This document shows positions 8,324 through 51,364 of a stretch of 64,000 bases of DNA, in pieces. Made by a program: the position numbers and the translations under genes. The stretch spans positions 186,001 to 250,000 of the forward strand of contig JAIUOE010000003.1 of NCBI GenBank assembly GCA_020161395.1, in the 5' to 3' direction. The stretch's first letter is position 1; each line of letters starts with the position of its first letter. Source of the stretch: Bacteroidota bacterium (GTDB lineage Bacteria > Bacteroidota > Ignavibacteria > Ignavibacteriales > Ignavibacteriaceae). The notes under the pieces were generated by a model, which ran no database searches, was not told where the DNA came from, and was given only the letters and a program-made list of their open reading frames with translations.

Positions 8324-8324
8324 G

Positions 8325-35522: not shown

Positions 35523-36017
35523 TTAATATTCAGAGTAAAGTCTTTTTCTCTCCTCTTCCCACTCGGTTTGAAAATTCAAATAATGAATTTCCATTAATTT
35601 GTAGAATCTCTCCATCTCTTCAAGCCGTCTAGCGGTAACACTGTTTTTCTCGAGATCGGCATCCTTTGCCATTTCTCTCAATATGCCGGCAATTCTTGTA
35701 TTATTCCGGATGAGATCAAAATTATTAAGAAACGCATTCTCGAAAATTTCGGGCTCTATCTCGTAATAATCTTTCCTGTTGTTCTCAGCTACCCATGCTT
35801 TTCTAATCAGCTTTTTGTCACGGAGTCTTCTGAGAATCTGGCTGACGGGACCCTTGCTCCTCCCAAGTTGCTCGCAAATATCGTCGAGAGAAACAGGTTG
35901 CGGACTGAATATCAACAACGCCACTATATGACCCATCAGCTTGTTCAAGCCGAAAGCCTTGTAGGCATCGCCGAAGCGACGAATCATATCATTTTTTATC
36001 TGTTCGTTTTCTATCAT
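35523..36017 (-). CDS. GbsR/MarR-family transcriptional regulator
   Basis: A 164-residue regulator of the GbsR subgroup of winged-helix proteins. The N-terminal FGLNKLMGHIVALLIFSPQP is characteristic; the DNA-reading helix is in DDICEQLGRSKGPVSQILRRL, and the C-terminal half is a helical dimerisation region. GbsR in Bacillus senses choline; relatives sense other small ligands. A 20-bp palindrome just before its start and a near copy before fabG indicate autoregulation and control of the divergent-function operon that follows on the same strand. It probably represses until the pathway substrate or its CoA ester is present. Confidence 0.86.
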   Translation of the reverse strand: MIENEQIKNDMIRRFGDAYKAFGLNKLMGHIVALLIFSPQPVSLDDICEQLGRSKGPVSQILRRLRDKKLIRKAWVAENNRKDYYEIEPEIFENAFLNNFDLIRNNTRIAGILREMAKDADLEKNSVTARRLEEMERFYKLMEIHYLNFQTEWEEERKRLYSEY

Positions 36018-36089: not shown

Positions 36090-38825
36090 TCAGACGATGT
36101 ACTTTTTTATCGTATGGATGAGACTGTCACGCTTAAACGGCTTGGCAATATAGTCGGTGCACCCCTCACTCAGGAAAATTTCCCTGTCACCCGGCATCGC
36201 AAATGCTGTTATTGCAACGATTGGCAAAAGAGCAAACCGGGGCATTTTACGAATAAGTCTTGTAAGTTCCACGCCATCCAGACCTTCCCTGAGGTTTATA
36301 TCCATGAGGATGGCAGCAAATTTTTCATCCCCTTCCAAAAGTTTTAATGCCTCTTCTCCATTTCTGGCATGCTGTACTTTACAAATTTTTGCAAGATGCA
36401 TCGACACTATTTCAAAAGGTGTATCTTCATCATCAACATACAGAAGTGTAGCCAACTTGTCGGAAGAAACCGTTAATTCCTCAACTGAAGTGCGGGTTAC
36501 TGTTTTTCTTTTTTTGGTCGAGGTTGACTTCGGTAATTTCAACAGAAATGTCGTCCCAATATTTTCTTTGCTTTCAACTCGAATTTTCACTCCGAGGAGA
36601 TCACAAAGTTTCTTTGTTATGGTCAAGCCGAGGCCTGTTCCTTCAAAATTACGCCCCATCCCCTCACTAACCTGTCTGAATTCCTGCCAGATCAGATTCA
36701 GATTTTCCGGTTTTATCCCGATTCCGGTGTCTGCTATTGCAATCTCCACAAATTCTGTTTCATCCTCCTCCAAAACAGAAATTGAAATGGTCACACTTCC
36801 ATTCAGTGTATATTTAAGAGCATTGCTGATTATATTGTTAAATATTTGAAAGAATGCTCTCTCATCCGAGTAGACTGTTACCTGTTTGTGATCAGATTTT
36901 AACTCTACTGACAGGTTCTTTTTCTTTGCAGTTTTATCGTTCAGTCTGATTACCTCTTGTGCAAGGGTCAACAGATCAAAATCGAACAAATCGAAAGATT
37001 GCTTTTCCGCTTCAAGTCTTGAATAATCAAGAATCAAATTCAGAGTCTCGATTAATCTTTGAGCTCCCGAATTTATGATTTTTGCCATCTCGAGAATTTC
37101 AGAGTCCGTGGCAACTTCTTCCAGAATCTCAGCATATCCAAGTATACCTATCATTGGAGTCCTGAGCTCGTGGCTCATGTTAGCCATCAAATTGGCTTTG
37201 ATTCTGCTCAGCTCCTCTCCTTTTATTTGTGCATACTTTATTGTCGACTCGATCAGTTTTTTGTCGGTAAGATCGATTCCAATTCCGATCAGGAGACCGC
37301 TCGACACCCGGATGTTTGACCAGATTGAATCAAGATATCCACCGTCATGTTTTCTCACACGGAATTCTTCCCATGCGATTTCTGCCCGAAGCATATAATC
37401 AGCAGCCCGTTGTCTTTCTCCTTCGTCGGGATATGCCTCCTCCATCAGATTAATCCTGTTGATCAGATCGTTCGAATAACCCGTCTTCTTTTCGAACTCG
37501 GCATTGACCATTGTTACATTAGTTTTCGGGTCAAACCGGGTAATCATAACTGGAATAGTGTTGATTATCCTCTCAAACAGCTCCTTCTGTGCTGCGAGTT
37601 GCTGCTCGTCTTCTTTTCGGATTCTCTCGCTCTCTACATGTTTGAGCACAAAGGAAATATCACCCGATATCTCATTTATCAGGTCTATCTCACTTTTATC
37701 AAAAAATCCGGGCTCTTTCGAGAAGAGTTGAAGAATAAATCTTACTTCTTCATTAACTACCACCGGGAAAATACCAAGGGAACGGAGTTCATACTGATTG
37801 ATGACAGAATTTTTGATCGAATTAAAAATCAATTGCTTCTTGTGAGTAAGAATATTCTCTCTCACCATGGGTTCATCAAGGTAAAGAAACAGATCGGATT
37901 CAGGGATCCTTTTTTGATCATTACCAAAAACAAATTTTTCCGGTTCTGCTGTCTTGAAATGACAGGGACACAGGAGAAGGGTTACAAGATCAAATTCGGC
38001 AGTTTCAAGGAAAATGGAACCAATCGTTTGTATCAGAACCGTTTCCTCTTCGATAGTCATCAGGCTTCTGTTTACCATGCTCAGAACTCTGTATAACCTG
38101 TTAAGCTTCTCAAGCTCATTTTCGTATCGAATCAGATGAGAAACATCTCTAATCGAGCAAAGGTATGACTGTCTTTGATCAAATTCGATCGGAGTGACCC
38201 TTAATTCACAGGTTTTAATTTCATTGGTACCGGTCAATATATTGATTATTGATTTGGTGCCTGCTACCGCCGGGAATCCGAATTCTTTTCCAAGCAGTGA
38301 GGTTTTCAACCTGAACATCTCCTCAGCAGCCGGATTTGAAAAGATGATAATCCCCTCCTGATTGACCACAAGCATCGGATCAGGATTTTGCTGAATTACC
38401 TTGTTTAGTTTTGCTTCCGACTTTTTGACCAGATTCAGAGCCATCACATGATCGGCGTAAACCTGGAATTGTGCGAGAAAAAGTTTGGAGGGGAGCGGAC
38501 GCGTTAGATACGCATCGGCGCCCGATTCAAGTCCTTTGACCTGATGGTCACTTTCTTTAAGGTATGCGGTTATCAGTATTACAAATATATTACTGGTAAG
38601 GGTATCCGCTTTGAGGATTTTGAGGAGTTCTATGCCGGAGAGATCAGGCATTTCGATGTCAAGCAATATGATATCAGGAAAGATGCTCTGAGCCATCCTC
38701 AGACCATCTTTTCCCCCAACCGCAGTGAATGTTCTAAATCCGGCCTTCTTGAGAATATATTCCTGACTCTGAATTAAATCGGGATTATCGTCAACAATAA
38801 GTACTGAGATAGTTTCGTTCTTCAT
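36090..38825 (-). CDS. Hybrid histidine kinase: REC-PAS-GAF-PAS-HisKA-HATPase-REC
   Basis: About 911 residues from the ATG at 38825 (preceded by AAAGAG; an upstream TTG would add six). Order: receiver with phospho-Asp D56 (LLDIEMPD), PAS (about 140-230), a GAF-like region (about 245-395), a second PAS (about 420-530), the phosphoacceptor in NMSHELRTP (about residue 552), ATPase domain with IADTGIGI and GTGLGLTI, and a C-terminal receiver with LMDINLREG. No membrane segment, so a cytoplasmic kinase. The N-terminal receiver may take input from a partner kinase in the operon. It lies 19 bp after the kaiB-like gene. Confidence 0.88.
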   Translation of the reverse strand: MKNETISVLIVDDNPDLIQSQEYILKKAGFRTFTAVGGKDGLRMAQSIFPDIILLDIEMPDLSGIELLKILKADTLTSNIFVILITAYLKESDHQVKGLESGADAYLTRPLPSKLFLAQFQVYADHVMALNLVKKSEAKLNKVIQQNPDPMLVVNQEGIIIFSNPAAEEMFRLKTSLLGKEFGFPAVAGTKSIINILTGTNEIKTCELRVTPIEFDQRQSYLCSIRDVSHLIRYENELEKLNRLYRVLSMVNRSLMTIEEETVLIQTIGSIFLETAEFDLVTLLLCPCHFKTAEPEKFVFGNDQKRIPESDLFLYLDEPMVRENILTHKKQLIFNSIKNSVINQYELRSLGIFPVVVNEEVRFILQLFSKEPGFFDKSEIDLINEISGDISFVLKHVESERIRKEDEQQLAAQKELFERIINTIPVMITRFDPKTNVTMVNAEFEKKTGYSNDLINRINLMEEAYPDEGERQRAADYMLRAEIAWEEFRVRKHDGGYLDSIWSNIRVSSGLLIGIGIDLTDKKLIESTIKYAQIKGEELSRIKANLMANMSHELRTPMIGILGYAEILEEVATDSEILEMAKIINSGAQRLIETLNLILDYSRLEAEKQSFDLFDFDLLTLAQEVIRLNDKTAKKKNLSVELKSDHKQVTVYSDERAFFQIFNNIISNALKYTLNGSVTISISVLEEDETEFVEIAIADTGIGIKPENLNLIWQEFRQVSEGMGRNFEGTGLGLTITKKLCDLLGVKIRVESKENIGTTFLLKLPKSTSTKKRKTVTRTSVEELTVSSDKLATLLYVDDEDTPFEIVSMHLAKICKVQHARNGEEALKLLEGDEKFAAILMDINLREGLDGVELTRLIRKMPRFALLPIVAITAFAMPGDREIFLSEGCTDYIAKPFKRDSLIHTIKKYIV

Positions 38826-38844
38826 TTTCTCTTTTAATTTCAAT

Positions 38845-39117
38845 TTACACTTTTATTTCAAGTCCAAGCAATACTCTTTGAGTATCAGTGAGATCACCAA
38901 CAATTCTTCTTACCGGAAGAGGAAGAATTTTTATCAATGTCGTGGTTGCGAGCACCTGATCCTGCACGGCAAGTTCAGGACTGTCCAGAACATCTATAAT
39001 AAGAAGTTCATAGTCATCATTTAAATTTGATTTACAAAGGCTTTTCAGATTTGACACCGCCTGTTCCGAGCGGGCAGTTTTACCTGTTATATAGAGTTTT
39101 AGTTGATATTTCCTCAT
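38845..39117 (-). CDS. KaiB-like protein
   Basis: A 90-residue KaiB-domain protein: LKLYITGKTARSEQAVSNL at the start, YELLIIDVLDSPELA, then the conserved TTTLIKILPLPVRRIVGDL. In cyanobacteria KaiB switches fold to bind KaiC and the kinase SasA, which itself has a KaiB-like domain. Here the gene is directly joined to a kinase gene (TAA then ATG), so a SasA-like pairing split over two genes is plausible. No kaiC lies in this operon; a KaiC-like fold occurs in the separate protein at 2992-4290. Confidence 0.88.
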   Translation of the reverse strand: MRKYQLKLYITGKTARSEQAVSNLKSLCKSNLNDDYELLIIDVLDSPELAVQDQVLATTTLIKILPLPVRRIVGDLTDTQRVLLGLEIKV

Positions 39118-40308
39118 TTATTCCTCCGCCAGGGGTAATTCCACGGTAAAAGTTGTCCCCGCTCCCACTTCACTTTCCACCGTAATTGTCCCGCCGTGAC
39201 CGTCAACGATTTTCTTAACGATCATCAAACCCAGTCCGGTACTTTTTTCACCACCTGTACTTTTTACACTCGTCTTGGCAAATGGTTTGAAAAGTTTTAT
39301 AATTTCATTCGAGGGAATCCCCTGCCCCTGATCTTTTACCACCAGCCTCGCCTTTTTCAGGTCTTTCATGATGGCAACAACTGTGGTGGTGTTTTGGTAT
39401 GAGTATTTTACAGCGTTTGTTAAAAGGTTGGTGATGACCTGATCTATCTTGTTCAGATCGGCGTATAGTGGAAGTGATTCCTCCGAAGAGACAAAATTTA
39501 TGAAGATATTCTTCTTTTCTGCAAGCGATTTATTAAGGGTAACTGCATCCCTCACGAGTTGTACAAGATCAAACCGTGTCTTGTTCAGATTCATTTGTCC
39601 GGACTCTATGCTGGAGATATCCAGCAACTCAGTCACCATGTTTAGCATGAACTTTGACAAAGAATCAATTTTTTCCAAAAAACTGACTGCCTCTTCCGAA
39701 AGTTTTTCCTTCTCCTCCAGTATAAACTCTGAAAGATTCATTATAACCCCGAGCGGATTTCGTAAATCGTGAGCCGCCATCCCCAAAAACTGATTTTTTA
39801 GTTTGTTCAGAGCCTCAAGTTCATGATTTTTTTTAGCCAGTTCTCTTTGAATATTAACCAGATCGTTATTCACCCGGCTTAGTTCTTCATAAAGGACTGT
39901 CTCGATTACCCGTTCTTTTTTATCCTCAGGGGCCATCTGTGCTTTAAACAACTGACGGAGCATATTGGTCTGGTCATTATTTATCGACATCATCTGAGAC
40001 ATCATGTCATCAAAGTTTGCCCTGTGATTTGTTCCCAGAATTATGATTTTGTTGTCGATCTTGACCGAATTGAAAAAGAACTTTGCTGTTTTTTCACCAC
40101 TGATAATGGAGAGTTGTTTACTGAAGGATGCACCAACGGATTTGGTTTCAACGAAGAACTCCAGGACTTTCGCGATATCTTCGTTTGAAAATATTTCGAT
40201 TAAAAGCCGGTCAATAAAACGGTTGTTTTCAAGTCCGGTATTGTTTATCTCTACCGATAAAACCCGTCCGGAAATATCACAAGTGAGTACAAGTCCGGTA
40301 TTTTCCAT
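39118..40308 (-). CDS. Soluble histidine kinase
   Basis: A 396-residue kinase without membrane segments. Residues 1-95 look like a divergent PAS-type sensor; a coiled coil (about 140-170) leads to the phosphoacceptor helix GMAAHDLRNPLG, and the ATPase domain has NLLTNAVKYS, VKDQGQGIP and STGLGLMIVKKI. The layout resembles SasA-like kinases, with the KaiB-like domain encoded separately in the next gene. It follows the B12-sensor gene after 14 bp, so light or cobalamin state may be its input. Confidence 0.88.
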   Translation of the reverse strand: MENTGLVLTCDISGRVLSVEINNTGLENNRFIDRLLIEIFSNEDIAKVLEFFVETKSVGASFSKQLSIISGEKTAKFFFNSVKIDNKIIILGTNHRANFDDMMSQMMSINNDQTNMLRQLFKAQMAPEDKKERVIETVLYEELSRVNNDLVNIQRELAKKNHELEALNKLKNQFLGMAAHDLRNPLGVIMNLSEFILEEKEKLSEEAVSFLEKIDSLSKFMLNMVTELLDISSIESGQMNLNKTRFDLVQLVRDAVTLNKSLAEKKNIFINFVSSEESLPLYADLNKIDQVITNLLTNAVKYSYQNTTTVVAIMKDLKKARLVVKDQGQGIPSNEIIKLFKPFAKTSVKSTGGEKSTGLGLMIVKKIVDGHGGTITVESEVGAGTTFTVELPLAEE

Positions 40309-40322
40309 AATGTCTGTTTCTA

Positions 40323-41387
40323 TTAGTTCAGAATAAAGCCGTTAGCTAATTCGATGGCACCTTTTGCATCTTCTGCGAAACCGTCGGCACCTATTTCTTT
40401 CCAAAGGTTTTTTGCGATCTTAAACGGATACCCACCGACAAGTACCTTGATATTCTCAAAACCGGGGGTGTTTTTTACTTTGGAAATAAAACTTTCAACA
40501 TCTTTAATATGATAGGTCATGGTGGCAGAAATTGCCAGCACTTTGGCATTGTGGTTCTCGAGAGCTCTGAGAATACTGTCAACCGGGGTATTCGCTCCGA
40601 AATAGTAACTGCTCCACCCCTCCATTTCAAAAAAATCGGCTACCATCCTCGCACCTATCTCGTGCAATTCATTCGCGACACAACTGACAACGATATTTCT
40701 GTTTACCGAGTTGTCATAGTTGAAAAGAAAAGGGTAAAGCTGTGACATTATAAGTTGGGTCGCTGCTGTAACAAAATGCTCATGGGCAACGGTAATTTTG
40801 CCCCTCTGCCAAAGCAGTCCTGTCTCCAGCATCGCCGGTTGAAAAACATTAAGATAAATATCCTTGATCGGTGTGCCCGAATGATACATGTTCATAACAA
40901 TGTTCATCGCCGATCTTCTGTCCCCTTTTAAGAGATAGTCGAGATATTCAGCAGCATTTTCCCTAAGAGGATTTTCCTCATCAAAATAGCTGTAATCAGC
41001 GGGCGAATTCTCTCTAAATGCAGCAACACCCTGGTCGAAAACTGTCGCTGTCACAAGAAATTCCTCCTCTGAAAGAAATTTCCTCAAATTATCCCGCACC
41101 AGGTCGAAGAACCGATAAAACTCGTCGTTTACAATATTTAGAGAGGAAAAAAAGATTTTTGCCCATCTCATGTATTCGATAAACAATTCGGGCTGCGAAA
41201 GTCTGACAGCTTCTGCAAGATAGCTGAGCTTGTATTCGCAATCCTGCAGATAGAGATCGATGTGTCTCTGAGTGTAGCTTTTCTTGAACGATGGGGAGAC
41301 TTCAAAATGGTTGTCCAATACCATCCGGGAAATCATTTTTTTGTTTCCCTCAAGCTTCCTGCCGATTAAATTCGATTTTTCCTTCAT
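40323..41387 (-). CDS. CarH-like B12-binding photosensor without DNA-binding domain
   Basis: 354 residues. The C-terminal half holds the four-helix and Rossmann cobalamin-binding domains of CarH. It has the W-x9-EH motif that marks adenosylcobalamin light sensors (W193, E203, H204) and the E-x-H-x-x-G motif (E240, H242, G245) whose His ligates cobalt. Spacing between Trp and the axial His is 49 residues, close to CarH (46). The usual N-terminal MerR domain is missing; residues 1-130 are instead helical and unlike any DNA-binding domain I recognise. It sits between two histidine kinase genes, so the light signal is probably passed to a kinase rather than to DNA. Cobalamin binding without light sensing is the alternative. 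Confidence 0.83.
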   Translation of the reverse strand: MKEKSNLIGRKLEGNKKMISRMVLDNHFEVSPSFKKSYTQRHIDLYLQDCEYKLSYLAEAVRLSQPELFIEYMRWAKIFFSSLNIVNDEFYRFFDLVRDNLRKFLSEEEFLVTATVFDQGVAAFRENSPADYSYFDEENPLRENAAEYLDYLLKGDRRSAMNIVMNMYHSGTPIKDIYLNVFQPAMLETGLLWQRGKITVAHEHFVTAATQLIMSQLYPFLFNYDNSVNRNIVVSCVANELHEIGARMVADFFEMEGWSSYYFGANTPVDSILRALENHNAKVLAISATMTYHIKDVESFISKVKNTPGFENIKVLVGGYPFKIAKNLWKEIGADGFAEDAKGAIELANGFILN

Positions 41388-41393
41388 AACGGG

Positions 41394-42539
41394 TTACTCA
41401 TTCTGATTAATTGATACAGGATACTCGGCATAAAAAGTTGTGCCCTTTTCATTGGAAGATTCAAAATAGACTTTTCCCTGCAAATACTTTTCAGAGAGAA
41501 GTTTCATGCTGTAAGTCCCAAGTCCTCTTCCTTTTCCCTTGCTCGAAAAAGAACGGTTAAAAATTTGAAGTTGAACGATACTCGGCATAAAGGAATGATT
41601 ATTCACAGAGAAAATAATTTTGCCCTCTTTTTCCACACACGACACCGTTATTACAGAACCGACGGGATCTGCTTCAAGGGCATTCTTTACCATGTTTCCA
41701 AGAACTCTCCCAAGCAGGCTTCGGTCGTTTACTATTTCAATATCTGTCACTTCTCCCGGAACGAGTGATTTCCCTTCTGCGACAACATGATTTTTGTAAA
41801 GCTCGATTGTCTCGTGAACCATCCTGGCACTGCTGAATGTTGCGGGACGGATATCGAGTTGCCCACCTTCAGCAGCTATAAGCTGTTTTTGAGCCTGTAT
41901 TTCTTCGATAAGACGATTGGATAATTCTTCGATGCTTTCACTGAAGATTTCGAGTTCATCAGGTTCCGCTTCCCGGAGAATCTGGGTGTAACCTAAAATA
42001 CCACCTGCAGTGTTGAGAATGTCGTGGAAGAAAATTCTTTCGAGAGCCTGACGCCTCTTTTCGTTGGAAATGTCGGCAACGGTAAATACTGTGAAATCCT
42101 CTCCTTCAAGTGAGAGTCGAGTCGATTTCACACGCAAGTCAAGCGCGGTACACCCGTCACCTTGAATGATCCTGCATTCCTGAACATCTTCATACTGCCC
42201 GCTTTGTGAATTGAGAATGGATATCACCGCTCCGCAGGTTTTACAAAATTCTGATGTTCCACATCCGGCTTCATTCTCGAAGGCATGCTGGCAGTTTATA
42301 GCCTCACCGGGTCTGAATCCCCGTTTTAGAAAATCGTCTTCAGCGGCAAGATAATTCAGCAGGCTCTTGTTGGCAAAAACTATCTCCCGTTCTTTGTTTA
42401 ATATCATGACAAATTCAGGAATTGCGTGTAAGACGGAAGTTATGTCTGAATGAGACTCAATTTTATTAATTTGAGCCAGAAGAATATGTTCAGGGGTCCG
42501 TTCGGGAGGTGCGAACGATGTTTTGAGTGCGGTACTCAT
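41394..42539 (-). CDS. PAS histidine kinase with cysteine cluster
   Basis: A 381-residue soluble kinase. A PAS domain (about 35-150) carries four clustered cysteines, C83, C93, C99 and C102, in the order CQH...GCG...C-x2-CG, a pattern able to bind an iron-sulfur cluster or metal. The phosphoacceptor box is the atypical FFHDILNTAGG (H172), and the ATPase domain ends GRGLGTYSMKLL. It is the first gene of the signalling operon, 6 bp ahead of the B12-sensor gene, and is preceded by a 19-bp palindrome. Redox sensing is a reasonable guess. Confidence 0.83.
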   Translation of the reverse strand: MSTALKTSFAPPERTPEHILLAQINKIESHSDITSVLHAIPEFVMILNKEREIVFANKSLLNYLAAEDDFLKRGFRPGEAINCQHAFENEAGCGTSEFCKTCGAVISILNSQSGQYEDVQECRIIQGDGCTALDLRVKSTRLSLEGEDFTVFTVADISNEKRRQALERIFFHDILNTAGGILGYTQILREAEPDELEIFSESIEELSNRLIEEIQAQKQLIAAEGGQLDIRPATFSSARMVHETIELYKNHVVAEGKSLVPGEVTDIEIVNDRSLLGRVLGNMVKNALEADPVGSVITVSCVEKEGKIIFSVNNHSFMPSIVQLQIFNRSFSSKGKGRGLGTYSMKLLSEKYLQGKVYFESSNEKGTTFYAEYPVSINQNE

Positions 42540-42613: not shown

Positions 42614-43990
42614 CTACAAGTATTTTTTTACCTTTTCCGCCGCCGGTTTTGAGTTTTTAAAGCAATCACCTATCGAAATGCCTTCCCTGAAATTTCCGGA
42701 GAATAAGAGCCCTGGATTTTCTGCTTCAATTTTGTTGAAATAAATATCGTGCAGGTAATAACCAAGGTTATACTGCGGTATCGCCCTGTCCCACATCCTT
42801 GATTTGGAAAAAACAGGTTCACCTGAAATTTTCATGATGTGGCGCAATTCCTCAATCACTTTCGATTCGATTTCGTTGCCAAAACGACGGAACACATCGA
42901 AGTTCTTGGCACCACCGATAAAAACAGTGAAGGCGGCAAGATTCGAGTTACACCTGTTTTCAAAAATTACGGAACTCCAGATCGCACCGAGGAAAATTTT
43001 CTTTTCCTTGCTTGGAATCAAAAAACCAAACCCGTCAAGAGGTGTTCTGATTTCGCTCTTTTTGAAGGCGACGAAGAGTACTTTTACAGGAGGATGGTAG
43101 ATTTCTTTGAAATGTGATGAAAGTTCCCGGTCAAAATCTGCAAACACATCTGCCGAGACATGTGCAGGAAGTGTCGAGAGAAGTATGTCGCACTTGATCG
43201 TGTGAGGAGTACCGTTCTTCTCATATGTAACGGAATATCCATCCCCCTCCCTGGTCACCTTGGAAACTTTACAATTGTAGTGAATTCTGTCAGGAAATTG
43301 TGCAGCTATTGTGTCAGGAAGAATCCCCATCCCCGACCGGAACGAAAACATTTTCGCACTCTGTTTCGACTCCTCATTGCGGGCTTTTGCCTGTTTACGC
43401 TCTTTTGCGCCTTTTATCACGCCCTTTATCAGTCCGCCGTATAACTCCTCTAAACGGTAGAGTTTTGGAAAGGCTGATTTCACACTCAGTTTCTCGGCGT
43501 CTCCTGCAAAAACACCAGAAACGAAGGGATCGATCGCATAATCAAGAAATTCCCTTCCGAGTCTTCTCGTTACAAATTCGGCGAGACTCTGATTGTATCC
43601 ATCCTTCGATTTTCCAACAAACGGTTCTTTCATCACTCTGATTTTTGCCATTGGTGAGAAGAGCCTCGTTTTAAGGAAAGCACCCGGACTTGTTGGCAAC
43701 GACATCAGTTCATCATTTTTAAGGATGTACCTTTTGTTCGAAGTCTCACTTGCGTAAATCATCTCATCATCGAGCCCAAGCTGGCTGACCATTTCACGAA
43801 TGTAGGGGGAAGTTTCGAGTCCGCTGTTGGGACCAAAATCCATCAGGAAGCCATTTTCCTTTTCAGTCCTTATACTTCCGCCCGGTTTATCACCCGCTTC
43901 GAGTATCGTGAAATCCACTCTATCACGAAACAACCAGTGAGCTGCTGTAAGCCCAGAAATTCCTGCGCCAAGTATTACAATATTTTTCAT
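42614..43990 (-). CDS. hemY: Protoporphyrinogen oxidase (HemY type)
   Basis: A 458-residue FAD enzyme that oxidises protoporphyrinogen IX to protoporphyrin IX. The dinucleotide-binding start GAGISGLTAAHW and the downstream DKPGGSIRTE are typical, as is the C-terminal LLFSGNFREGISIGDC. HemY-type enzymes use O2, whereas the operon's HemN is the O2-independent step, so the pathway may work across oxygen levels. The gene starts 1 bp after hemH and ends the haem operon. Confidence 0.92.
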   Translation of the reverse strand: MKNIVILGAGISGLTAAHWLFRDRVDFTILEAGDKPGGSIRTEKENGFLMDFGPNSGLETSPYIREMVSQLGLDDEMIYASETSNKRYILKNDELMSLPTSPGAFLKTRLFSPMAKIRVMKEPFVGKSKDGYNQSLAEFVTRRLGREFLDYAIDPFVSGVFAGDAEKLSVKSAFPKLYRLEELYGGLIKGVIKGAKERKQAKARNEESKQSAKMFSFRSGMGILPDTIAAQFPDRIHYNCKVSKVTREGDGYSVTYEKNGTPHTIKCDILLSTLPAHVSADVFADFDRELSSHFKEIYHPPVKVLFVAFKKSEIRTPLDGFGFLIPSKEKKIFLGAIWSSVIFENRCNSNLAAFTVFIGGAKNFDVFRRFGNEIESKVIEELRHIMKISGEPVFSKSRMWDRAIPQYNLGYYLHDIYFNKIEAENPGLLFSGNFREGISIGDCFKNSKPAAEKVKKYL

Positions 43991-43991
43991 A

Positions 43992-44996
43992 TCAGGGGTT
44001 CAATATTTCTTTTTTTCCGGTAAGTTCAGATGAAACAAGCTCAGCAAGACCTTCCACGAAAGTTTTTGAGTCGTTCAATCCTGTCATTACTATGTAATTT
44101 TCAATTTTAGCCTCTTCAGCATTATGCCGGTACTCGATGTCCAGTTCGAATGATGTCTCAACATGATCGGAGACAAAACTTATCGGGACAACAAGCACAT
44201 CCTTCACTCCCTTGCTTCCAAGTTCCATTAGTTTGTCGTCAGTCGCCGGTTCCAGCCATTTTACGGGACCTACCTTACTCTGAAACGAAAGATGATACAT
44301 GTGGGAATAACTGCGCAGTTTCATCACCGTCTCCATGGTGTTTCGAATTTCACCGCTGTACGGGTCACCTTTTTTTACGAGACTGACGGGGGTGCCGTGT
44401 GCACTGAAAAGAATATTCACCATATTCCTTCGTTCTTCTGGAAATTTGAGAAGACACTCATCGATTCGCTCATTAATGGCTTTCACATAAAGAGGCTGGT
44501 TGTAGTAGTTTCTGATATAAGCAACCCGGGACATGTCGCCCTTGTACACCCGTTTCCACTCATTGAATGATGAACCGGTTGTCGTGATGGAGTAATGCGG
44601 GTAGAGGGGAAGCAGTATAACCTTGTCATAGTTTCCTGCAGCAACTTTTTGTGCTGTCTCTGCCGTCAGTGGATTCCAGTAACGCATTGCAGTGAACACA
44701 TCTATCGAAAAAGATAATTCTCCTTCTTTAGTAGAATGAAGTTCCCTCAGCCTCGCTTCGAGCATCGATCTTTGAAGTTCTGTCCACTCGTTTATAGGTG
44801 ACTTTCCACCGATCAAATGGTACTCTTCCGCAACCTTTGGGGCTCTCCTCTTCGAAATAATCTTTGCGAAAAGCTTCTGCCCAAAAGGAAGATTGAATAT
44901 ATCGGGATCGCTAAACAGATTGCGAAGAAACGGTTCTATCGCATCCATGGAGTCGGGACCACCCAGATTCATTATTACAACAGCTATCTTGTTCAT
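43992..44996 (-). CDS. hemH: Ferrochelatase
   Basis: A 334-residue ferrochelatase, which inserts Fe2+ into protoporphyrin IX. Landmarks are VVIMNLGGPDS at the start, SAHGTPVSLVKKGDPY containing the catalytic His, and VPISFVSDHVETSFELDIEY with the second conserved His and acidic residues. Length is normal. It lies 38 bp after hemN and 1 bp before hemY. Confidence 0.95.
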   Translation of the reverse strand: MNKIAVVIMNLGGPDSMDAIEPFLRNLFSDPDIFNLPFGQKLFAKIISKRRAPKVAEEYHLIGGKSPINEWTELQRSMLEARLRELHSTKEGELSFSIDVFTAMRYWNPLTAETAQKVAAGNYDKVILLPLYPHYSITTTGSSFNEWKRVYKGDMSRVAYIRNYYNQPLYVKAINERIDECLLKFPEERRNMVNILFSAHGTPVSLVKKGDPYSGEIRNTMETVMKLRSYSHMYHLSFQSKVGPVKWLEPATDDKLMELGSKGVKDVLVVPISFVSDHVETSFELDIEYRHNAEEAKIENYIVMTGLNDSKTFVEGLAELVSSELTGKKEILNP

Positions 44997-45034
44997 ATTT
45001 TTCAGTTCCTGATCACTTTCATCAATGTATTTGC

Positions 45035-46417
45035 TTATACCGTCCTTGAATATCTTCCCTGGTCTTCTTTTCGTTCGATGAAACCGTCAAATTTCATGGC
45101 AATGTTTCTAATAAGGAGTCTGCCTTTGTTCGAAACCTGAAGTCCGTCATCATTAATTGTGAGGAGACCATCCTCTTCCATCCCTTTCAGGTTTTGAAGT
45201 GAGGAGGCAAAATACTCTTTGAAATTTATTTTGAATTCCTTTTCAAAGTTTGAAAACTGCAGTTCAAAGTCACACATCACTTTTGTAATGACTTCCCTTC
45301 TCAGGAGGTCGTCGTCTGTCAGATAGATGCCTTTGTGAACAGGCAGTTTTTCATCATTCAAAGCATCAAAATATTCTTTTTCCTTCTTGAGGTTCTGGGC
45401 ATACACCCTTCCGATCTGACTGATGCTTGTAATTCCAAATGCATAAAGATCGGCACCGGCATTGGTACTGTATCCCTGGAAATTTCTGTGAAGCTTTTTG
45501 TCTCTCAGTGCAACTACCATCTCGTCTGTTGGCTTGGCAAAGTGATCCATTCCAATAAACACATAACCGGCTTTCACAAGTTCTTCAATGGTCTGTTGTA
45601 GTATCTCAAGTTTTACTTCCGGTTTCGGGAGATCTTCCTGCTTTATGAGACCCATGTGTTTTTTCATCCAGGGGACATGTGCATAGTTGAAAACGGCGAT
45701 TCTGTCGGGAGAAATGTCTATGACCGCCCTGACAGTCTTGAGAAAATCTTCTTTGGTCTGAAACGGGAGACCGTAAATCAGATCAAGGTTGATGCTTGAA
45801 AATCCAAGCTCTCTCACCCAGTCAACTACCTGCCGCGTCATGCTTTCAGGTTGAATCCTGTTAACGGCTTTCTGTACTTCGGGAGTGAAATCCTGTACCC
45901 CCATTGAAATCCTGTTGAAACCACCGCTTCTTAACGCCTCGAGGTGGGCTCTCTCAAGTCCTCTCGGGTCAATCTCACATCCGGCTTCGATTGAAGGATC
46001 AATCTTGAAAGAAGTATTAATGTAGGAAACGAGGTCAAATATTTCATCGGGATCCAGATGTGTTGGTGTCCCACCGCCCCAGTGCAACTGGGTCACAGGT
46101 CTGTCCACATCGAGATAAGTTCTCAGGAGGTCGATCTCGTTCTTGACATATTTTATGTACTCTTTTATCCTGTCTCTGTTCCGTGTGATAATCATGTTAC
46201 AACCGCAGAAATAGCAGAGAGTATCGCAGAACGGGAGGTGATAGTAGAGAGAAAGTGGTGGCTTTACCGCCGCAGTATTTGTCTTTACTATCTCATCGAG
46301 GTAATTGTCTGCAGTGAATCCCTCATGAAAGTGAGGAGCAGTCGGGTAGCTGGTATAGCGTGGTCCCGGCTGGTCATATTTTTTTATAAGGTCTATGTCA
46401 AAATCGAGTTCAAACAT
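45035..46417 (-). CDS. hemN: Oxygen-independent coproporphyrinogen III dehydrogenase
   Basis: A 460-residue radical-SAM enzyme that decarboxylates coproporphyrinogen III to protoporphyrinogen IX without O2. The iron-sulfur motif CxxxCxxC is C64, C68, C71 within YYHLPFCDTLCYFCGC, and the extra Cys typical of true HemN (C73) is present, which separates it from HemW. GGGTPTHL and the C-terminal HemN domain are seen. It lies 11 bp after hemE. Confidence 0.95.
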   Translation of the reverse strand: MFELDFDIDLIKKYDQPGPRYTSYPTAPHFHEGFTADNYLDEIVKTNTAAVKPPLSLYYHLPFCDTLCYFCGCNMIITRNRDRIKEYIKYVKNEIDLLRTYLDVDRPVTQLHWGGGTPTHLDPDEIFDLVSYINTSFKIDPSIEAGCEIDPRGLERAHLEALRSGGFNRISMGVQDFTPEVQKAVNRIQPESMTRQVVDWVRELGFSSINLDLIYGLPFQTKEDFLKTVRAVIDISPDRIAVFNYAHVPWMKKHMGLIKQEDLPKPEVKLEILQQTIEELVKAGYVFIGMDHFAKPTDEMVVALRDKKLHRNFQGYSTNAGADLYAFGITSISQIGRVYAQNLKKEKEYFDALNDEKLPVHKGIYLTDDDLLRREVITKVMCDFELQFSNFEKEFKINFKEYFASSLQNLKGMEEDGLLTINDDGLQVSNKGRLLIRNIAMKFDGFIERKEDQGRYSRTV

Positions 46418-46428
46418 TGTAAGTCCAA

Positions 46429-47475
46429 TCAGTTATGATATTTATGGCTGTCGCTCTTAATAAAATCAACAAGAGTCTTAAGATTTTCAGGTTTTACATC
46501 CGGAAGAATTCCATGCCCCAGATTGAAGATGTGACGGTGACCTGAATCAAGGGATGCCAGAATTTTATCAGCTTCATCCCTGATGGTTTGTTTGGGTGCG
46601 TAAAGAATTGTCGGGTCCATGTTTCCCTGAACAACTGCACGGTCACCGATTTCTCTTTTTACTGCTGCGAGATCAACCGTCCAGTCGAAACTGTAACCAT
46701 CAGCACCGAGTTCTGCCAGTTTTGAAAAATTATAATTCACTCCCTTGGCAAATACAATTACGGGAGCATGAGGTTTCAACTCATCGACAATTCTTTTGAT
46801 GTATGGCTTCGAGAATTCTTCAAACTGCGATGGTGAGAGAATGCTTCCCCAGGTGTCAAAAACCTGGACAGCATCGGCTCCCGCGGCAACTTTTGCTTTA
46901 AGATATCCAATGATTACATTTGTCAGCATGTCGAGTATCTTGTGGGCTGATTTTCTCTCATTGTAAACAAATTCTTTGATTTTACTGAAGTTCTTGGATC
47001 CTTTCCCTTCAACCATGTATGTAAGGAGTGTCCAGGGTGCGCCGGAAAATCCGATAAGGGGTACTCTGCCGTCAAGTTCTTTTACTGTGAGGGAAACAGC
47101 ATCCATAACATATTTCAGTTTGTCGATCGGGTCGAATTCAGAAATGCGTGCAAGGTCGGCAGAATTTCTTATCGGGCTCGGAAAAACGGGTCCCGTCCCT
47201 TCATTCATAATAAATTCAAGCCCCATCGCTTCAGGAATTACAAGAATGTCTGAAAAAATAATTGCAACATCAACCCCGATTATGTCAACAGGCTGAATCG
47301 TCACTTCTGCAGCAAGTTCAGGAGTTTTACACATGGTTATGAAATCGGCTTTTTCACGAACAGCGCGATACTCGGGAAGGTATCTTCCTGCCTGCCTCAT
47401 AACCCATATGGGAGTTCTTTCGGTTTTTTCACCTTTAAGGGTGCGAAGAAAGAGATCATTCTTAAATATTTTCAA
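46429..47475 (-). CDS. hemE: Uroporphyrinogen decarboxylase
   Basis: A 348-residue HemE that removes four carboxyl groups from uroporphyrinogen III. The signature PIWVMRQAGRYLPEYR and GFSGAPWTLLTYMVEG are intact, as are IIFSDILVIPEAMG and the catalytic Asp in that segment. It overlaps the end of hemD by 14 bp. Confidence 0.95.
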   Translation of the reverse strand: MKIFKNDLFLRTLKGEKTERTPIWVMRQAGRYLPEYRAVREKADFITMCKTPELAAEVTIQPVDIIGVDVAIIFSDILVIPEAMGLEFIMNEGTGPVFPSPIRNSADLARISEFDPIDKLKYVMDAVSLTVKELDGRVPLIGFSGAPWTLLTYMVEGKGSKNFSKIKEFVYNERKSAHKILDMLTNVIIGYLKAKVAAGADAVQVFDTWGSILSPSQFEEFSKPYIKRIVDELKPHAPVIVFAKGVNYNFSKLAELGADGYSFDWTVDLAAVKREIGDRAVVQGNMDPTILYAPKQTIRDEADKILASLDSGHRHIFNLGHGILPDVKPENLKTLVDFIKSDSHKYHN

Positions 47476-48265
47476 ATTTATTCTCCAAAATTTTATTTTT
47501 CAATTCTATCAGTAAAGTTTCCATGGTATAGACGGAGGGAACAAGAAAAACCGTATATCCGCTCTTTTCTATTACTTCGGCAGTCACATCCCCTATTGCA
47601 CAGGCAGGGTACAGTTTCAGTGCCTGATCGGCGAATACACCTAACACCTTCACAAAATTCTTAAAGGTTGAAGGGCTGGTAAAGATCAGGTAGTCGGGCG
47701 CAAAATGTGTCAAATATTCCCTGATTGACTGATATTCGTGTTGAAACGGGGGATCGTTTTTATAAACAATCACTCTTTCCACTTCCGCTCCCATCTCTTC
47801 CAGATTGTCTGCAAGTGATTCCTTCGAAAGATTACCGACGGGCAAAAGGATCTTTTTATTCCCGATGCTCGCCTTGCCAAAAAATTCCACCAGTCCGTCC
47901 GCCGTGAATGTTGCTGGGATTATCACTTCATTTTCGGGAAAATATTCCAAGACCTTTTTTGCAGTTTTTTCTCCAACACAAGCGATGGAAAGAGACTTAA
48001 AATCTGACAGGCTTATTCCAAGTTTATCCATTATCTGAATTGTGGAATAAAGTGCATGCACCGAAGTGAAGATTATTATCTCAAACTCCCCCGTTCGGGA
48101 AATAGCGTCGAGAGATGTTTCATTGATCACGGGAGTCATTCTAATCAACGGGATGTTTCTTCCATCAAACCCGTGCTTTAGAAAAAGCTCGAGTGTTTCA
48201 TCAGACTCTGATTCAGCCCTGAAGGAAATAACGAATGGTTTTCTCTCACCCATATTGAAAGCCAA
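47462..48265 (-). CDS. hemD: Uroporphyrinogen-III synthase
   Basis: A 267-residue HemD, which closes and inverts ring D of hydroxymethylbilane. The family is poorly conserved; the two-domain alternation, the segment IIFTSVHAL, and YLIFTSPSTFKNF support it, together with position between hemC and hemE. The start shown is a TTG two bases after the hemC stop, with AGGA upstream; an ATG four codons later is the alternative. Confidence 0.87.
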   Translation of the reverse strand: MAFNMGERKPFVISFRAESESDETLELFLKHGFDGRNIPLIRMTPVINETSLDAISRTGEFEIIIFTSVHALYSTIQIMDKLGISLSDFKSLSIACVGEKTAKKVLEYFPENEVIIPATFTADGLVEFFGKASIGNKKILLPVGNLSKESLADNLEEMGAEVERVIVYKNDPPFQHEYQSIREYLTHFAPDYLIFTSPSTFKNFVKVLGVFADQALKLYPACAIGDVTAEVIEKSGYTVFLVPSVYTMETLLIELKNKILENKFENI

Positions 48266-48267
48266 TT

Positions 48268-49194
48268 TCAGGAGATCCTGTCGATTGTGGCAATTATTTC
48301 TTTTCCACCATCATCAAACATGTCTTTGGCAAGTCCGATACCGAGTTCCTCAGCTTCATATTTGCTGCCTCTTACATATCCTCTCATCGCCTGAGTACCA
48401 TCAATCGTTCCGATATACGCCTTAAGGAAAAGTCCGTTAGGTTTTGTGATGGCATGGGCAGCGATCGGCACCTGACATCCTCCTTCAAGCTGACGGAGGA
48501 ACGCTCTTTCGGCAGAAACCGCGGCAAAGATATTATTATCGTGCAGGCAATCGACTATTTTCATCGATTCTACATCATCTTCACGGGTCTGAAGCCCGAG
48601 TGCACCCTGACCGACTGCGGGTAGCATCAAATCAATCGGAATGATCGATGAGATATGTTCTTCAAGTCCGAGTCTCTCAACTCCTGCTCTTGCAAGAATA
48701 ATTGCATCCCAGTCACTGTCCAGAAACTTTTGAATTCTGGTTGGTACATTCCCTCTTAGCTCGGCAACTTTAAGATCGGGTCTTAAATTAAGAAGCTGAC
48801 TCCTTCTTCTAAGTGATCCTGTAGCTACAGTTCCGTTTTCAGGAAGTGAATCTATTGTCGTCCCTTTTTTCCGGGCAATCAACACATCGTTTACATCATG
48901 TCTTTTTGAAACAGCAGCGAGGGCGAGTCCCTTCGGCATGTTTGTTTCCAGATCCTTCAGAGAGTGTACGGCGAGGTCGACCTGTCCTTCGAGAAGAGCT
49001 GTTTCAAGTTCCTTCGTAAAAAGTCCCTTGTCACCAATTTTTGAGAGGGCAACATCGAGAATTTTGTCTCCCTTGGTGTTTATGTGGATAACCTCCACTT
49101 CAATACCCGGGTGATGTCTCATCAACTCTGATTTTACATGTTCAGTCTGCCATAAGGCAAGCTTGCTTTGTCTTGTTCCAATTCTAATTTTCAT
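48268..49194 (-). CDS. hemC: Porphobilinogen deaminase (hydroxymethylbilane synthase)
   Basis: A 308-residue HemC that links four porphobilinogens. The dipyrromethane cofactor is carried by C240 (LEGGCQVPI), the catalytic Asp is D81 in HSLKDLET, and the start KIRIGTRQSKLALWQ is typical. It lies 22 bp after hemA. Confidence 0.95.
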   Translation of the reverse strand: MKIRIGTRQSKLALWQTEHVKSELMRHHPGIEVEVIHINTKGDKILDVALSKIGDKGLFTKELETALLEGQVDLAVHSLKDLETNMPKGLALAAVSKRHDVNDVLIARKKGTTIDSLPENGTVATGSLRRRSQLLNLRPDLKVAELRGNVPTRIQKFLDSDWDAIILARAGVERLGLEEHISSIIPIDLMLPAVGQGALGLQTREDDVESMKIVDCLHDNNIFAAVSAERAFLRQLEGGCQVPIAAHAITKPNGLFLKAYIGTIDGTQAMRGYVRGSKYEAEELGIGLAKDMFDDGGKEIIATIDRIS

Positions 49195-49216
49195 AAAAAA
49201 ACAGTATCTCTATTTA

Positions 49217-50503
49217 TTAATCTTTTTTGATTTCTTCGTTAATGCCCTGCGGTTCAAACAGACTTGAGATAACCGAAGTGTAGTTCGCCACTTCCTGATA
49301 GTTCAGACCGCTTTCCGCCACCTGTCTCAGCCTGATTGTCGGATTATGAAGCAGTCGCCCGACGAGTCTCTTTGTCATGTCATCAAGTTTCTTGAGGTCA
49401 TCTTCATGAATTTTGTGCCGTATTTTTTCAATCTCTTCCTGTCTGATATCCTCGAAGAAGTCACGGATTTTTTTGATTGTCGGTATTACTTCAAGGGTGT
49501 TGTACCAGCTAAAAAGATTCTGCATCTCTTCAATTATAATATTCTCGACGGCAGGAATCTCTTTTTCCCGCCTCTTGATGTTCTGGTCGATTATCTTCCC
49601 AAGGGAATCGATATCATTATAAAACACACCGTCAAGTTTTGCAACTGAAGGGTCAATGTCTCTCGGCAGTGCCAGGTCCATCAGACAGACGGGAGTTCCC
49701 CTTCTTTTCTTGACAATCGCTTTAACCTCGTCAAGATTTATTATTATTCCGGGAGCGGAGGTAGCAGAAACAATTATATCGAAATTGTGAAGATTCTCCT
49801 TGAGGTTTTCGAACGGAACTATTTCACCATAGACTTTTCTTGCGAGTTCCTCGGCACGGGAAAGGGTTCTGTTGGCAATTGCTATTTTCCCAATCCCTTT
49901 GTCTTTCAAGTGAACTGCAGCCAGCTCCCCGGTTTCGCCTGCACCTATTACAATGGCTGATTTGTTTTCGAACGAGGAAAAAATCTTTTCGACAACCTGA
50001 ATCGCTGCATAACTCACTGATACCGCACCTTCACCAATTGCGGTTTCGGATATGCTTCTCTTCCCTACTTTAACAGCGGTATCAAAAATTCTCCGCATTA
50101 CCGTTCCCGCAAAATTCATGTCAATTGCGAGTTGGAAAGCCTCTTTCATCTGGCCGTGTATCTGACTGTCACCAAGGATCAAAGAATCGATACCCGATGT
50201 GACACTAAACAGATGTTTGACTGCGCCGCATGAGAAAAAATTGAGGAAATTCTTGTTCGAGAGCCCGTCCACTTTTTTGAAGTCAAGAAGAGCATCCTGA
50301 ATTTTTGCTATATTCAGGTCGTTCTCGACGGGTAAACCGAATATCTCAGTACGGTTACAGGTGGATATTACAAATCCGTCAGTAAGATATTCTCTTCTGA
50401 GGACATCCATGAACTCGGTTATCTCGTTCTTCGAAAGGTGTAGTGCCTCTCTCTGTTCGATGGATGCTGTATGATGATTTATTGAAGTACCAATCAGGTT
50501 CAT
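49217..50503 (-). CDS. hemA: Glutamyl-tRNA reductase
   Basis: A 428-residue GluTR, the first committed step of the C5 route to 5-aminolevulinate. The nucleophile is C49 in STCNRTEIFG; the NADPH domain carries VIGAGETGELAA, and the C-terminal dimerisation helices are present. hemL and hemB, also needed, are not in this window. It follows hemX by 33 bp. Confidence 0.95.
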   Translation of the reverse strand: MNLIGTSINHHTASIEQREALHLSKNEITEFMDVLRREYLTDGFVISTCNRTEIFGLPVENDLNIAKIQDALLDFKKVDGLSNKNFLNFFSCGAVKHLFSVTSGIDSLILGDSQIHGQMKEAFQLAIDMNFAGTVMRRIFDTAVKVGKRSISETAIGEGAVSVSYAAIQVVEKIFSSFENKSAIVIGAGETGELAAVHLKDKGIGKIAIANRTLSRAEELARKVYGEIVPFENLKENLHNFDIIVSATSAPGIIINLDEVKAIVKKRRGTPVCLMDLALPRDIDPSVAKLDGVFYNDIDSLGKIIDQNIKRREKEIPAVENIIIEEMQNLFSWYNTLEVIPTIKKIRDFFEDIRQEEIEKIRHKIHEDDLKKLDDMTKRLVGRLLHNPTIRLRQVAESGLNYQEVANYTSVISSLFEPQGINEEIKKD

Positions 50504-50536
50504 ATTGAATCTCCGGTCAAACCGGGAATAAAATTT

Positions 50537-51364
50537 TTATTTGTTAAATTGATGGAAACTTGAACCCAGAATACCGGTGATCCCAAGTGCTATGATTGCC
50601 GCTACAAAACCGGTGATCGAGTAGATCATGAATTTTTTACCATAAAGTCCGGTCGTAAAACGGGTTACAATTCCGATGCCATAGATGAGCCAAACTGCTC
50701 CCGTAGAGAGGAGTTTTGGATCCAGCAGGCTAAAATTCGGGAACGCCACAGGTAACCAGATTGTTCCAATCAGTATGGCGATGGTAAGCAGGGCAAATCC
50801 GACAAAAACTGAATTTACCGCAAGTTTTTCGAGCATTTCAAGACTCGGGAGACGGTTGAATATCAACCCGAACTGATTTAACTTGATCTTTTTGTACTGC
50901 ACCGTAAATAAAATTGCATACACAGCCGAAATGGTTATGGCTGCATATCCAAAAAGTGCCGATATCACATGAAGCCCAAGCAGTCTGTTCTTCAAAACCG
51001 CCGGAACATCAATCAGATCCTGTATGAACAGTGACGATATGGTTTGAAAAACGAGCGAAAACAGTATAATAAAAGAACCTGTCGCTCTGATATCTGAGGA
51101 AAGTTCTATCAAAAAATAGGAAAAGGCGACCGAACAGGCCAGAACCGTGAATATTTCAAACTTTGTTGTTATCGGCGGATGGTCAAAATGAATGGTCCAT
51201 AAAAGAAGATATACAGTGTGAATGATCAGAGTTACGAATAAAAATATCCTCTTCACATTGTGCAATACGGGTTTATCTTTGAAAAAATCGACAAGATAAA
51301 CAAAAAATATCACAGCATATAGGAGCGGAAGAGAATAATTTAGCAGGTGAATGGTCTCAAGCAT
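50537..51364 (-). CDS. hemX: HemX/CcsA-like membrane protein
   Basis: A 275-residue protein with about eight transmembrane helices, of the cytochrome c assembly (CcsA/HemX) family. It lacks a clear WWD haem-handling motif, as do HemX proteins, which are encoded before hemA and in Bacillus influence GluTR level. It is the first gene of the haem operon; the 193-bp region upstream is AT-rich and should hold the promoter, but I cannot place it. A role in haem delivery for cytochrome c maturation is the alternative. Confidence 0.82.
   Translation of the reverse strand: MLETIHLLNYSLPLLYAVIFFVYLVDFFKDKPVLHNVKRIFLFVTLIIHTVYLLLWTIHFDHPPITTKFEIFTVLACSVAFSYFLIELSSDIRATGSFIILFSLVFQTISSLFIQDLIDVPAVLKNRLLGLHVISALFGYAAITISAVYAILFTVQYKKIKLNQFGLIFNRLPSLEMLEKLAVNSVFVGFALLTIAILIGTIWLPVAFPNFSLLDPKLLSTGAVWLIYGIGIVTRFTTGLYGKKFMIYSITGFVAAIIALGITGILGSSFHQFNK

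Follow-up and report, generated by a model that had tools for sequence, protein, structure and literature searches.

The gene at 40323..41387 (minus strand) of the window, by which we mean the whole stretch of 64,000 nucleotides analyzed here, raises the question of what a B12-binding protein of light-sensor type would sense without a DNA-binding domain of its own, and to which partner it would pass the signal. The open reading frame is intact, starts with ATG and encodes 354 amino acids. Its C-terminal part consists of a helical cap (residues 142-221; 40725..40964, minus strand) followed by a Rossmann B12 domain (residues 227-354; 40326..40709, minus strand), which were matched by the Pfam families B12-binding_2 (residues 146-217, E 2.4e-14) and B12-binding (residues 231-344, E 9e-21), both above the curated cut-offs. 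No other domain was detected in the receptor at E up to 1, and the preliminary description was therefore right that MerR or any other DNA-binding domain is absent by Pfam scan. The two motifs that it had named were likewise recovered from the translation: the W-x9-EH motif of the cap reads W193-Q-R-G-K-I-T-V-A-H-E203-H204 (W193 at 40809-40811 and E203-H204 at 40776-40781, minus strand), and the cobalt-ligating ExHxxG motif of the Rossmann domain reads E240-L-H242-E-I-G245, with H242 (40662-40664, minus strand) as the predicted cobalt ligand. We aligned the window receptor with those of 80 related loci (numbered with the prefix L below), which were retrieved with the window's own peptides and for that reason lean towards near relatives; W193, E203, H204 and H242 were invariant in 81/81 aligned members. 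The combination of Pfam domains above cut-off and complete invariance indicates that these motifs did not arise by chance.

Over its whole length, the protein is closest by sequence to the photocobilins among characterised proteins, ahead of CtMerR and TtCarH. The best phmmer matches in the PDB were the photocobilins 8j2x/8j2w (E 3e-23), followed by the MerR-type B12 receptors CtMerR (E 5e-16) and TtCarH (E 5e-8). In the AlphaFold model of the receptor (pLDDT 94.4, pTM 0.89), residues 139-354 superimposed on photocobilin 8j2y with Z 26.6 (rmsd 1.9, 210 aligned); the three closest structures by Z were photocobilins, with Z-scores of 26.6 and 25.9, and the order by Foldseek E-value placed the CtMerR B12 domain first and a photocobilin third. 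Thus, the label of a CarH-like sensor that has lost its DNA-binding domain was only partly sustained: a B12 domain of light-sensor type and the lack of MerR stood, whereas the affiliation to CarH gave way to the photocobilins, which are closer by both sequence and Z, and the N-terminus proved to be a globin. The receptor shares with CarH/LitR (TtCarH, 5C8D) and CtMerR (8JBS) the fold of the B12 domain and the W-x9-EH triad, but it differs from CarH/LitR in having no MerR domain, an extra globin, and no His at the place of TtCarH His132. This His makes the bis-His light state in TtCarH; the residue after W193 is Gln194 here and Gln in SasPcob, and CtMerR also lacks the His according to the accessible text of PMC11796333, so that the upper His is a trait of TtCarH rather than a strict family trait. 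Across the 81 members, position 194 was occupied by 62 Q, 9 L, 8 H, and 2 E. The same source gives a SignatureFinder signature for light-responsive domains of this type (GxxW, EH, GxxH, GxxxP; PMC11796333), of which the receptor carries three of the four parts, with N239 instead of the Gly of GxxH; that Gly is present in 56/81 relatives and the whole four-part signature in 53/81. The same genome also encodes a W-x9-EH protein that would be CarH-like, with a MerR-like front and a B12 domain recognised by eye (L155:6146-7066), as well as a standalone 211-aa B12 domain with W-x9-EH (L154:6125-6760).

The region in front of the B12 half had been described as an unrecognised helical region, and this description was overturned by the family profile and the model fold (Z 17), both of which identify a phycobiliprotein-like globin, or photoglobin (residues 1-127; 41007..41387, minus strand). 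A search with the single sequence gave a weak match of residues 36-77 to the C-terminal globin of SasPcob (10.4 bits), and no Pfam Phycobilisome match was obtained with the window receptor's own N-terminus at E up to 1. A profile was built from 65 N-terminal sequences, those of the window and of 64 loci out of the 72 in which the N-terminus is complete; it matched the photocobilin 8j2x/8j2w globin at E 2e-8 and then phycocyanin, allophycocyanin and smURFP from E 5e-7. At E up to 1, 49/65 of these N-termini matched Pfam Phycobilisome, the best at 1.3e-10. In the model, residues 1-126 superimposed on allophycocyanin (Z 17.3, rmsd 2.1, 125 aligned) and residues 1-127 on smURFP (Z 17.0, rmsd 1.9); the fold search with the whole model returned mostly B12-domain matches, with 2 of the 50 listed rows confined to the globin. 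Two alignments (phmmer and profile) equated D49 (41241-41243, minus strand) and W75 (41163-41165, minus strand) with Asp270 and Trp296 of SasPcob, and D49 was kept in 72/74 and W75 in 73/74 members having a residue there. The residue at position 46, presumably the place of the phycobilin-attaching Cys by the profile alignment and phycobiliprotein numbering, is Tyr in the window and Cys in 17/73 relatives. A Cys at this place, in the form C-x-x-D, was seen for example in L008, L017, L020, L053 and L068. Because the globin fold and the bilin-contact residues D49 and W75 are both kept, we concluded that the receptor is photocobilin-like, with the globin first.

The accessible parts of the photocobilin work (Zhang et al. 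2024; PMC10979010) report that photocobilins bind AdoCbl together with biliverdin, that the Co-C bond is cleaved under green as well as red light, that Asp270 and Trp296 of SasPcob contact biliverdin, that AbDPcob lacks the Asp and binds biliverdin weakly, and that the standalone SasPcob alters a cyclase in trans. In SasPcob, illumination with green light removes a band near 570 nm and raises absorption near 356 and 500 nm. The receptor resembles SasPcob (8J2W/8J2X) and AbDPcob (8J2Y) in combining a photoglobin with a B12 domain, in the W-x9-EH motif and in the lower His, and it further resembles SasPcob in the bilin-contact Asp and Trp, in the Gln after the Trp, and in standing alone without an enzyme domain. 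In contrast to the solved photocobilins, the globin is N-terminal, so that the order is reversed, and identity over the B12 domain is 24-26%; the receptor gene is also followed, unlike in photocobilins, by a kinase gene with a PAS-like front, mostly in genomes without a heme oxygenase. Photoglobin-B12 fusions are already known, and the domain order is not in itself new, since photocobilins are stated to occur with an N-terminal as well as with a C-terminal B12 domain (PMC10979010). Bilin-binding globins of the BBAG-2 group likewise couple a biliverdin globin with a B12 protein, although, in the accessible part of PMC10151467, the two are separate neighbouring genes, whereas they are fused in the receptor.

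The conserved pocket poses a problem of supply. Heme oxygenase (PF01126) was absent from the window's genome, from the 58 near genomes searched together with it, and from 42 of 48 family genomes searched (present in 6/48); D49 and W75 were kept in all 42 genomes without it. The supply of biliverdin is thus left unexplained by heme oxygenase in this and in most family genomes. A Cys at the attachment place did not go with heme oxygenase either (1/6 genomes with the enzyme vs 11/42 without). Anaerobic heme degradation by ChuW/HutW, which yields anaerobilin, was rejected as a general source of bilin, as 0/49 genomes passed the cut-off and most HutW-model matches were at the level of HemW/HemN paralogues. 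In Bacteroidales, a HutW/ChuW-like radical SAM gene with 241-268 bits (cut-off 400) lies beside the receptor in L062 (4593-5942) and L083 (4589-5884) and on the opposite strand in L077 (3915-5207), and a partial HemN-like open reading frame, listed with these without a model score, lies beside it in L056 (614-1438). Given the zero count above cut-off and the paralogue-level matches, these genes are only a local lead to how a linear tetrapyrrole might be made anaerobically.

The receptor gene lies in a compact operon, in which all genes from HK2 through the hybrid kinase share the minus strand and are 0-14 bases apart. As had been noted, histidine kinases flank the receptor on both sides: HK2 (41394..42539, minus strand; a HATPase_c/GHKL kinase, Pfam HATPase_c E 2.6e-13) upstream, and HK1 (39118..40308, minus strand) directly behind. 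The KaiB-like neighbour was borne out as well: a 90-aa KaiB-family protein (38845..39117, minus strand; Pfam KaiB E 2.7e-25), the one KaiB match found in the genome, whose best NCBIfam matches are KaiB models, yet below their cut-offs. It is followed by a hybrid kinase of the order receiver-PAS-PAS-HisKA-HATPase-receiver by Pfam, with a weak GAF_2 match below cut-off (36090..38843, minus strand), and by a winged-helix, MarR-like regulator (35523..36017, minus strand; Pfam HTH_24/HTH_27 just over cut-off). HK2 is also found upstream of the receptor, and the regulator is also present, in L007 and L130. Upstream of HK2, on the same strand and ending 74 bases before it, open reading frames form a heme-synthesis run (ccsA-like, hemA, hemC, hemD, hemE, hemN, hemH, hemG; 42614..51364, minus strand), in which hemN and hemG were above NCBIfam cut-offs and the others were named by reading the sequence. 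In L131, from a second genus, the receptor is embedded in a cluster of heme genes at a different location. Elsewhere in the window, 62488-63711 (plus strand) encodes a multihaem cytochrome-like protein, with many CxxCH-like motifs by eye.

HK1 consists of a PAS-like front (residues ~1-95), a coil, a HisKA domain with H180 as phosphoacceptor, and a HATPase domain, the last two by Pfam. H180 and the N-box Asn were invariant in 39/39 chosen HK1s, the best Foldseek matches of the HK1 model (pLDDT 86, pTM 0.55) were histidine kinases, and the front domain appears PAS-like from the order of strands and helices in that model; no Pfam PAS domain was called in the 39 HK1s at E 0.01. Separate models of the front domain and the kinase core were built from these 39 proteins. 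A kinase core (HATPase model) was found within 2 kb downstream and on the same strand in 70/80 loci, and in L065 the core comes later in the same protein, so that 71/80 loci have a kinase; this count replaces the 75/80 obtained by a loose rule. Among the others, L049 and L063 are truncated where their contigs end, four Hymenobacteraceae loci have a PAS-like protein alone, of 165-201 codons and without kinase (L020:7026-7520, L041:6914-7483, L053:7025-7546, L060:6891-7493), and L040, L067 (at a contig end) and L072 have neither kinase nor PAS-like domain. The front domain itself (HK1 residues 1-100) lay within 600 bases downstream in 65/80 loci; besides the last three, the 15 loci without it were nine Paenibacillus loci, L031, L058 and L076, all with other kinases lacking this domain. 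Of 82 matches to the PAS model at E<0.001 among the locus open reading frames, 78 were directly downstream of a receptor, three directly or closely upstream of one, and one was the window's HK1, met again in another copy of its locus.

The linkage held in L130-L137, relatives of the window's genome, where front domain and kinase were present in 8/8 loci, including L130 with its split receptor. In a wider draw of Chloroflexota, the phylum of genome G014, the receptor was found at E 1e-50 in 8/400 genomes and a kinase stood directly behind it in 2/8 loci, namely L153 (the L023 genome again), with PAS-like domain and kinase, and L147, with a HisKA_2 kinase without the PAS-like domain. In L146 the kinase is replaced by the PAS-like front domain fused to GGDEF, directly behind the receptor (7833-8870, minus strand). 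A small PAS-like protein was found in L150 and weakly in L151, small open reading frames in L148 and L149 matched only the longer front model and weakly, and in L152 nothing was found downstream of the receptor; L150, L151 and L152 have a PAS-model match upstream of it. A kinase also follows the receptor in Azospirillum thermophilum and A. brasilense Sp7, but none does in Skermanella rosea. Since the PAS-like domain is the most constant neighbour of the receptor while the outputs attached to it are exchangeable, these results suggest that it is the part that the receptor touches by docking. The earlier proposal that a B12-based light signal may enter a phosphorelay is supported, at the level of gene order, by a linkage that extends far beyond this genome.

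Thus, we proposed that the protein is a standalone photocobilin-type receptor of globin-then-B12 order that sets the activity of HK1 by docking, a reading to which we assign a probability of about 0.66. Light sensing, AdoCbl binding, photolysis and output by protein contact would follow by analogy with the photocobilin papers, whereas the docking on the PAS-like domain and the choice of bilin are purely our conjecture. AdoCbl would be bound in the base-off form, H242 would lie beneath the cobalt, and the adenosyl group would pack on W193 against E203/H204 of the partner subunit; green light would break the Co-C bond and thereby change the shape or assembly of the dimer, and the globin, built for a linear tetrapyrrole by its D49 and W75, would widen the spectrum towards the red. 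As the receptor has no output domain of its own, it would have to act on a partner, most likely the PAS-like front of HK1; docking there would set the kinase activity, and phosphate would then pass from HK1 to receivers of the same operon. The PAS-like domain would serve as the receptor's adaptor with exchangeable outputs, alone or with GGDEF in relatives. Counting against this proposal are N239 in the light signature, the lack of heme oxygenase here and in most family genomes, hosts that may rarely see light, the broken or missing receptor in three congeners, and the loci in which kinase or PAS-like domain is wanting, among them most of the Chloroflexota draw and Skermanella rosea.

We weighed this photocobilin-type reading against explanations that give the protein another input or another function. 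The B12 half might belong to a corrinoid carrier protein of methyltransferase, since MtgC and MtbC were its top NCBIfam matches; given scores of 77.3 and 68.6 bits (cut-offs 370 and 350, respectively), with W-x9-EH and a globin in the protein, with a kinase linkage among the neighbours instead, and with no methyltransferase by Pfam among the eight window proteins scanned, we rejected this assignment as highly improbable. A sensor of AdoCbl, redox or oxygen rather than light, in which AdoCbl occupancy or the oxidation of cobalt would set the kinase and the globin would be structural or report tetrapyrrole status, deserves more weight. The hosts include Lokiarchaeota, a methanogen and syntrophs, and some of these groups are probably dark-dwelling in anaerobic habitats and may rarely see light; D49 and W75 persist where heme oxygenase is missing; and the position of the receptor after the heme-synthesis run here and inside a heme cluster in L131 would suit such a function. 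This explanation is at odds with the adenosyl-packing W-x9-EH motif, which has been described in light-labile AdoCbl receptors and is fully invariant here, and with the photocobilin identity of the closest structures by Z, and we consider it unlikely.

A milder departure, compatible with the HK1 part of the proposal, is that the globin no longer binds a bilin and serves only to shape the dimer, which would leave a green-only B12 receptor. The Tyr at position 46, where relatively few relatives have Cys, the absence of heme oxygenase from the genome, and the weak binding of biliverdin by AbDPcob (PMC10979010) all point in this direction, whereas D49 and W75 are almost invariant here and AbDPcob has lost the Asp. 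We regard loss of bilin binding as a serious candidate, somewhat short of even odds.

The neighbouring KaiB led us to the relation of the module to clock genes. Besides the window, KaiB was found in 8/80 loci (L011, L023, L034, L053, L057, L070, L077, L086), also in L130 and L136, and 4.8 kb upstream in L146; KaiC stands alongside in L011, L023, L034, L053, L057, L077, L136 and L146, and is above the NCBIfam cut-off in L011 and L057. Genome-wide, KaiB was over cut-off in 18/49 genomes and KaiC in 9/49. In 7/18 KaiB genomes, the window's included, a KaiB copy is linked to the receptor within ~6 kb, for which P is ~5e-14 under uniform placement, a figure that ignores shared ancestry. Between HK1 and KaiB, six loci (L011, L023, L057, L077, L086, L136) have a receiver protein with invariant Asp56, to which a PAS is added in two; the tails of these proteins belong to a single family. 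The likeness of the tail to the C-terminal domain of KaiA is weak (Pfam KaiA E 4.5e-4 in 1/6, RsbU_N E 1.8e-3 in 1/6, best PDB matches to KaiA at E 0.077). KaiC then follows KaiB in L011, L023, L057, L077 and L136, and the contig of L086 ends after KaiB. The module of some Bacteroidota and Chloroflexota is continuous with genes for KaiB, KaiC and a receiver protein whose tail is KaiA-like. Departures from this arrangement are L053, where receptor and KaiC-KaiB are separated only by the front protein that lacks a kinase, L146 with its GGDEF protein, L086 with a receptor without globin, and L034 and L070, with no such receiver gene between HK1 and KaiB. A single inherited event was rejected as the origin of the linkage: on a quick tree, the Kai label requires nine changes, at least six of which are forced by starred branches, and shuffles were as low in 45/500. 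This tree has 87 rows, leaves out L007 and L080 (fragmented), L130 (broken), L147-L152 and plasmid rows, and scores L146 and the globin-less L086 as Kai-linked. We concluded that the Kai linkage is recurrent, by gain and/or loss.

The receiver with its weakly KaiA-like tail before KaiB in the six loci resembles KaiA3-KaiB3-KaiC3, but the window differs from that system in having KaiB only. According to the accessible text of PMC11372060, KaiA3 is present in five non-cyanobacterial genera and its cognate kinase is not yet identified; 'B12' is absent from the main text, in which the cluster is not reported with a B12 photoreceptor. The accessible text of two papers on KaiB/KaiC in Bacteroidetes likewise contained no B12 or cobalamin, in a search that was short on subscription journals. 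Schneider 2022, on photoglobins, may already describe part of the photoglobin-kinase linkage. A broader reading, which we hold to be rather unlikely, is that the photocobilin and HK1 form the light-input arm of KaiA3B3C3-type clocks outside cyanobacteria, with a globin tetrapyrrole not made by heme oxygenase. Light acting on B12 and on a bilin would reach HK1 via the PAS-like adaptor domain, HK1 would phosphorylate the receiver of the KaiA-like protein and so tune KaiC, and the window's lineage would retain sensor, kinase and KaiB but neither KaiC nor the KaiA-like gene. In the window's genome no KaiC was over cut-off (best 31.7 bits vs 546) and none was found at E 1e-60, and the operon has no KaiA-like receiver gene; for these reasons it is more likely here that the signal passes from HK1 to the hybrid kinase at 36090-38843. 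A single-domain KaiC-like ATPase (Pfam E 4.1e-17) is also encoded in the window, at 2992-4290 (minus strand) and far from KaiB; it has a long C-terminal extension and, by score, is not a circadian KaiC.

The module varies in its sensor as well as in its outputs. L066, L069, L081, L082, L085 and L086 have a B12 protein without globin, with kinases behind all six, and L007 and L080 contain receptor fragments. In G051, a genome of the same genus, the receptor is split into two open reading frames, with stops in the stretch (L130:10839-11902), and the kinases and KaiB around it stay whole. In G050, of the same genus, it is split in two by an interrupting stop (probably L007:673-1527, since equal match coordinates and identity suggest that L007 and the G050 contig are one record), and no receptor match was found in G049, of the same genus and 90% complete. 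From these three genomes we concluded that the receptor is dispensable in some lineages.

If the proposed module is real, the B12 light sensor gains a partner domain and a kinase, as a compact unit across bacteria and archaea; HK1 would become a candidate for the cognate kinase sought by the authors of KaiA3, and the question would be posed of which tetrapyrrole fills the conserved bilin pocket in genomes without heme oxygenase. Receptor and kinase are both present in a cultured strain, Azospirillum brasilense Sp7. Because several relatives carry circadian-clock genes next to the receptor, it can also be put forward, and tested, as a candidate light input to a bacterial clock.
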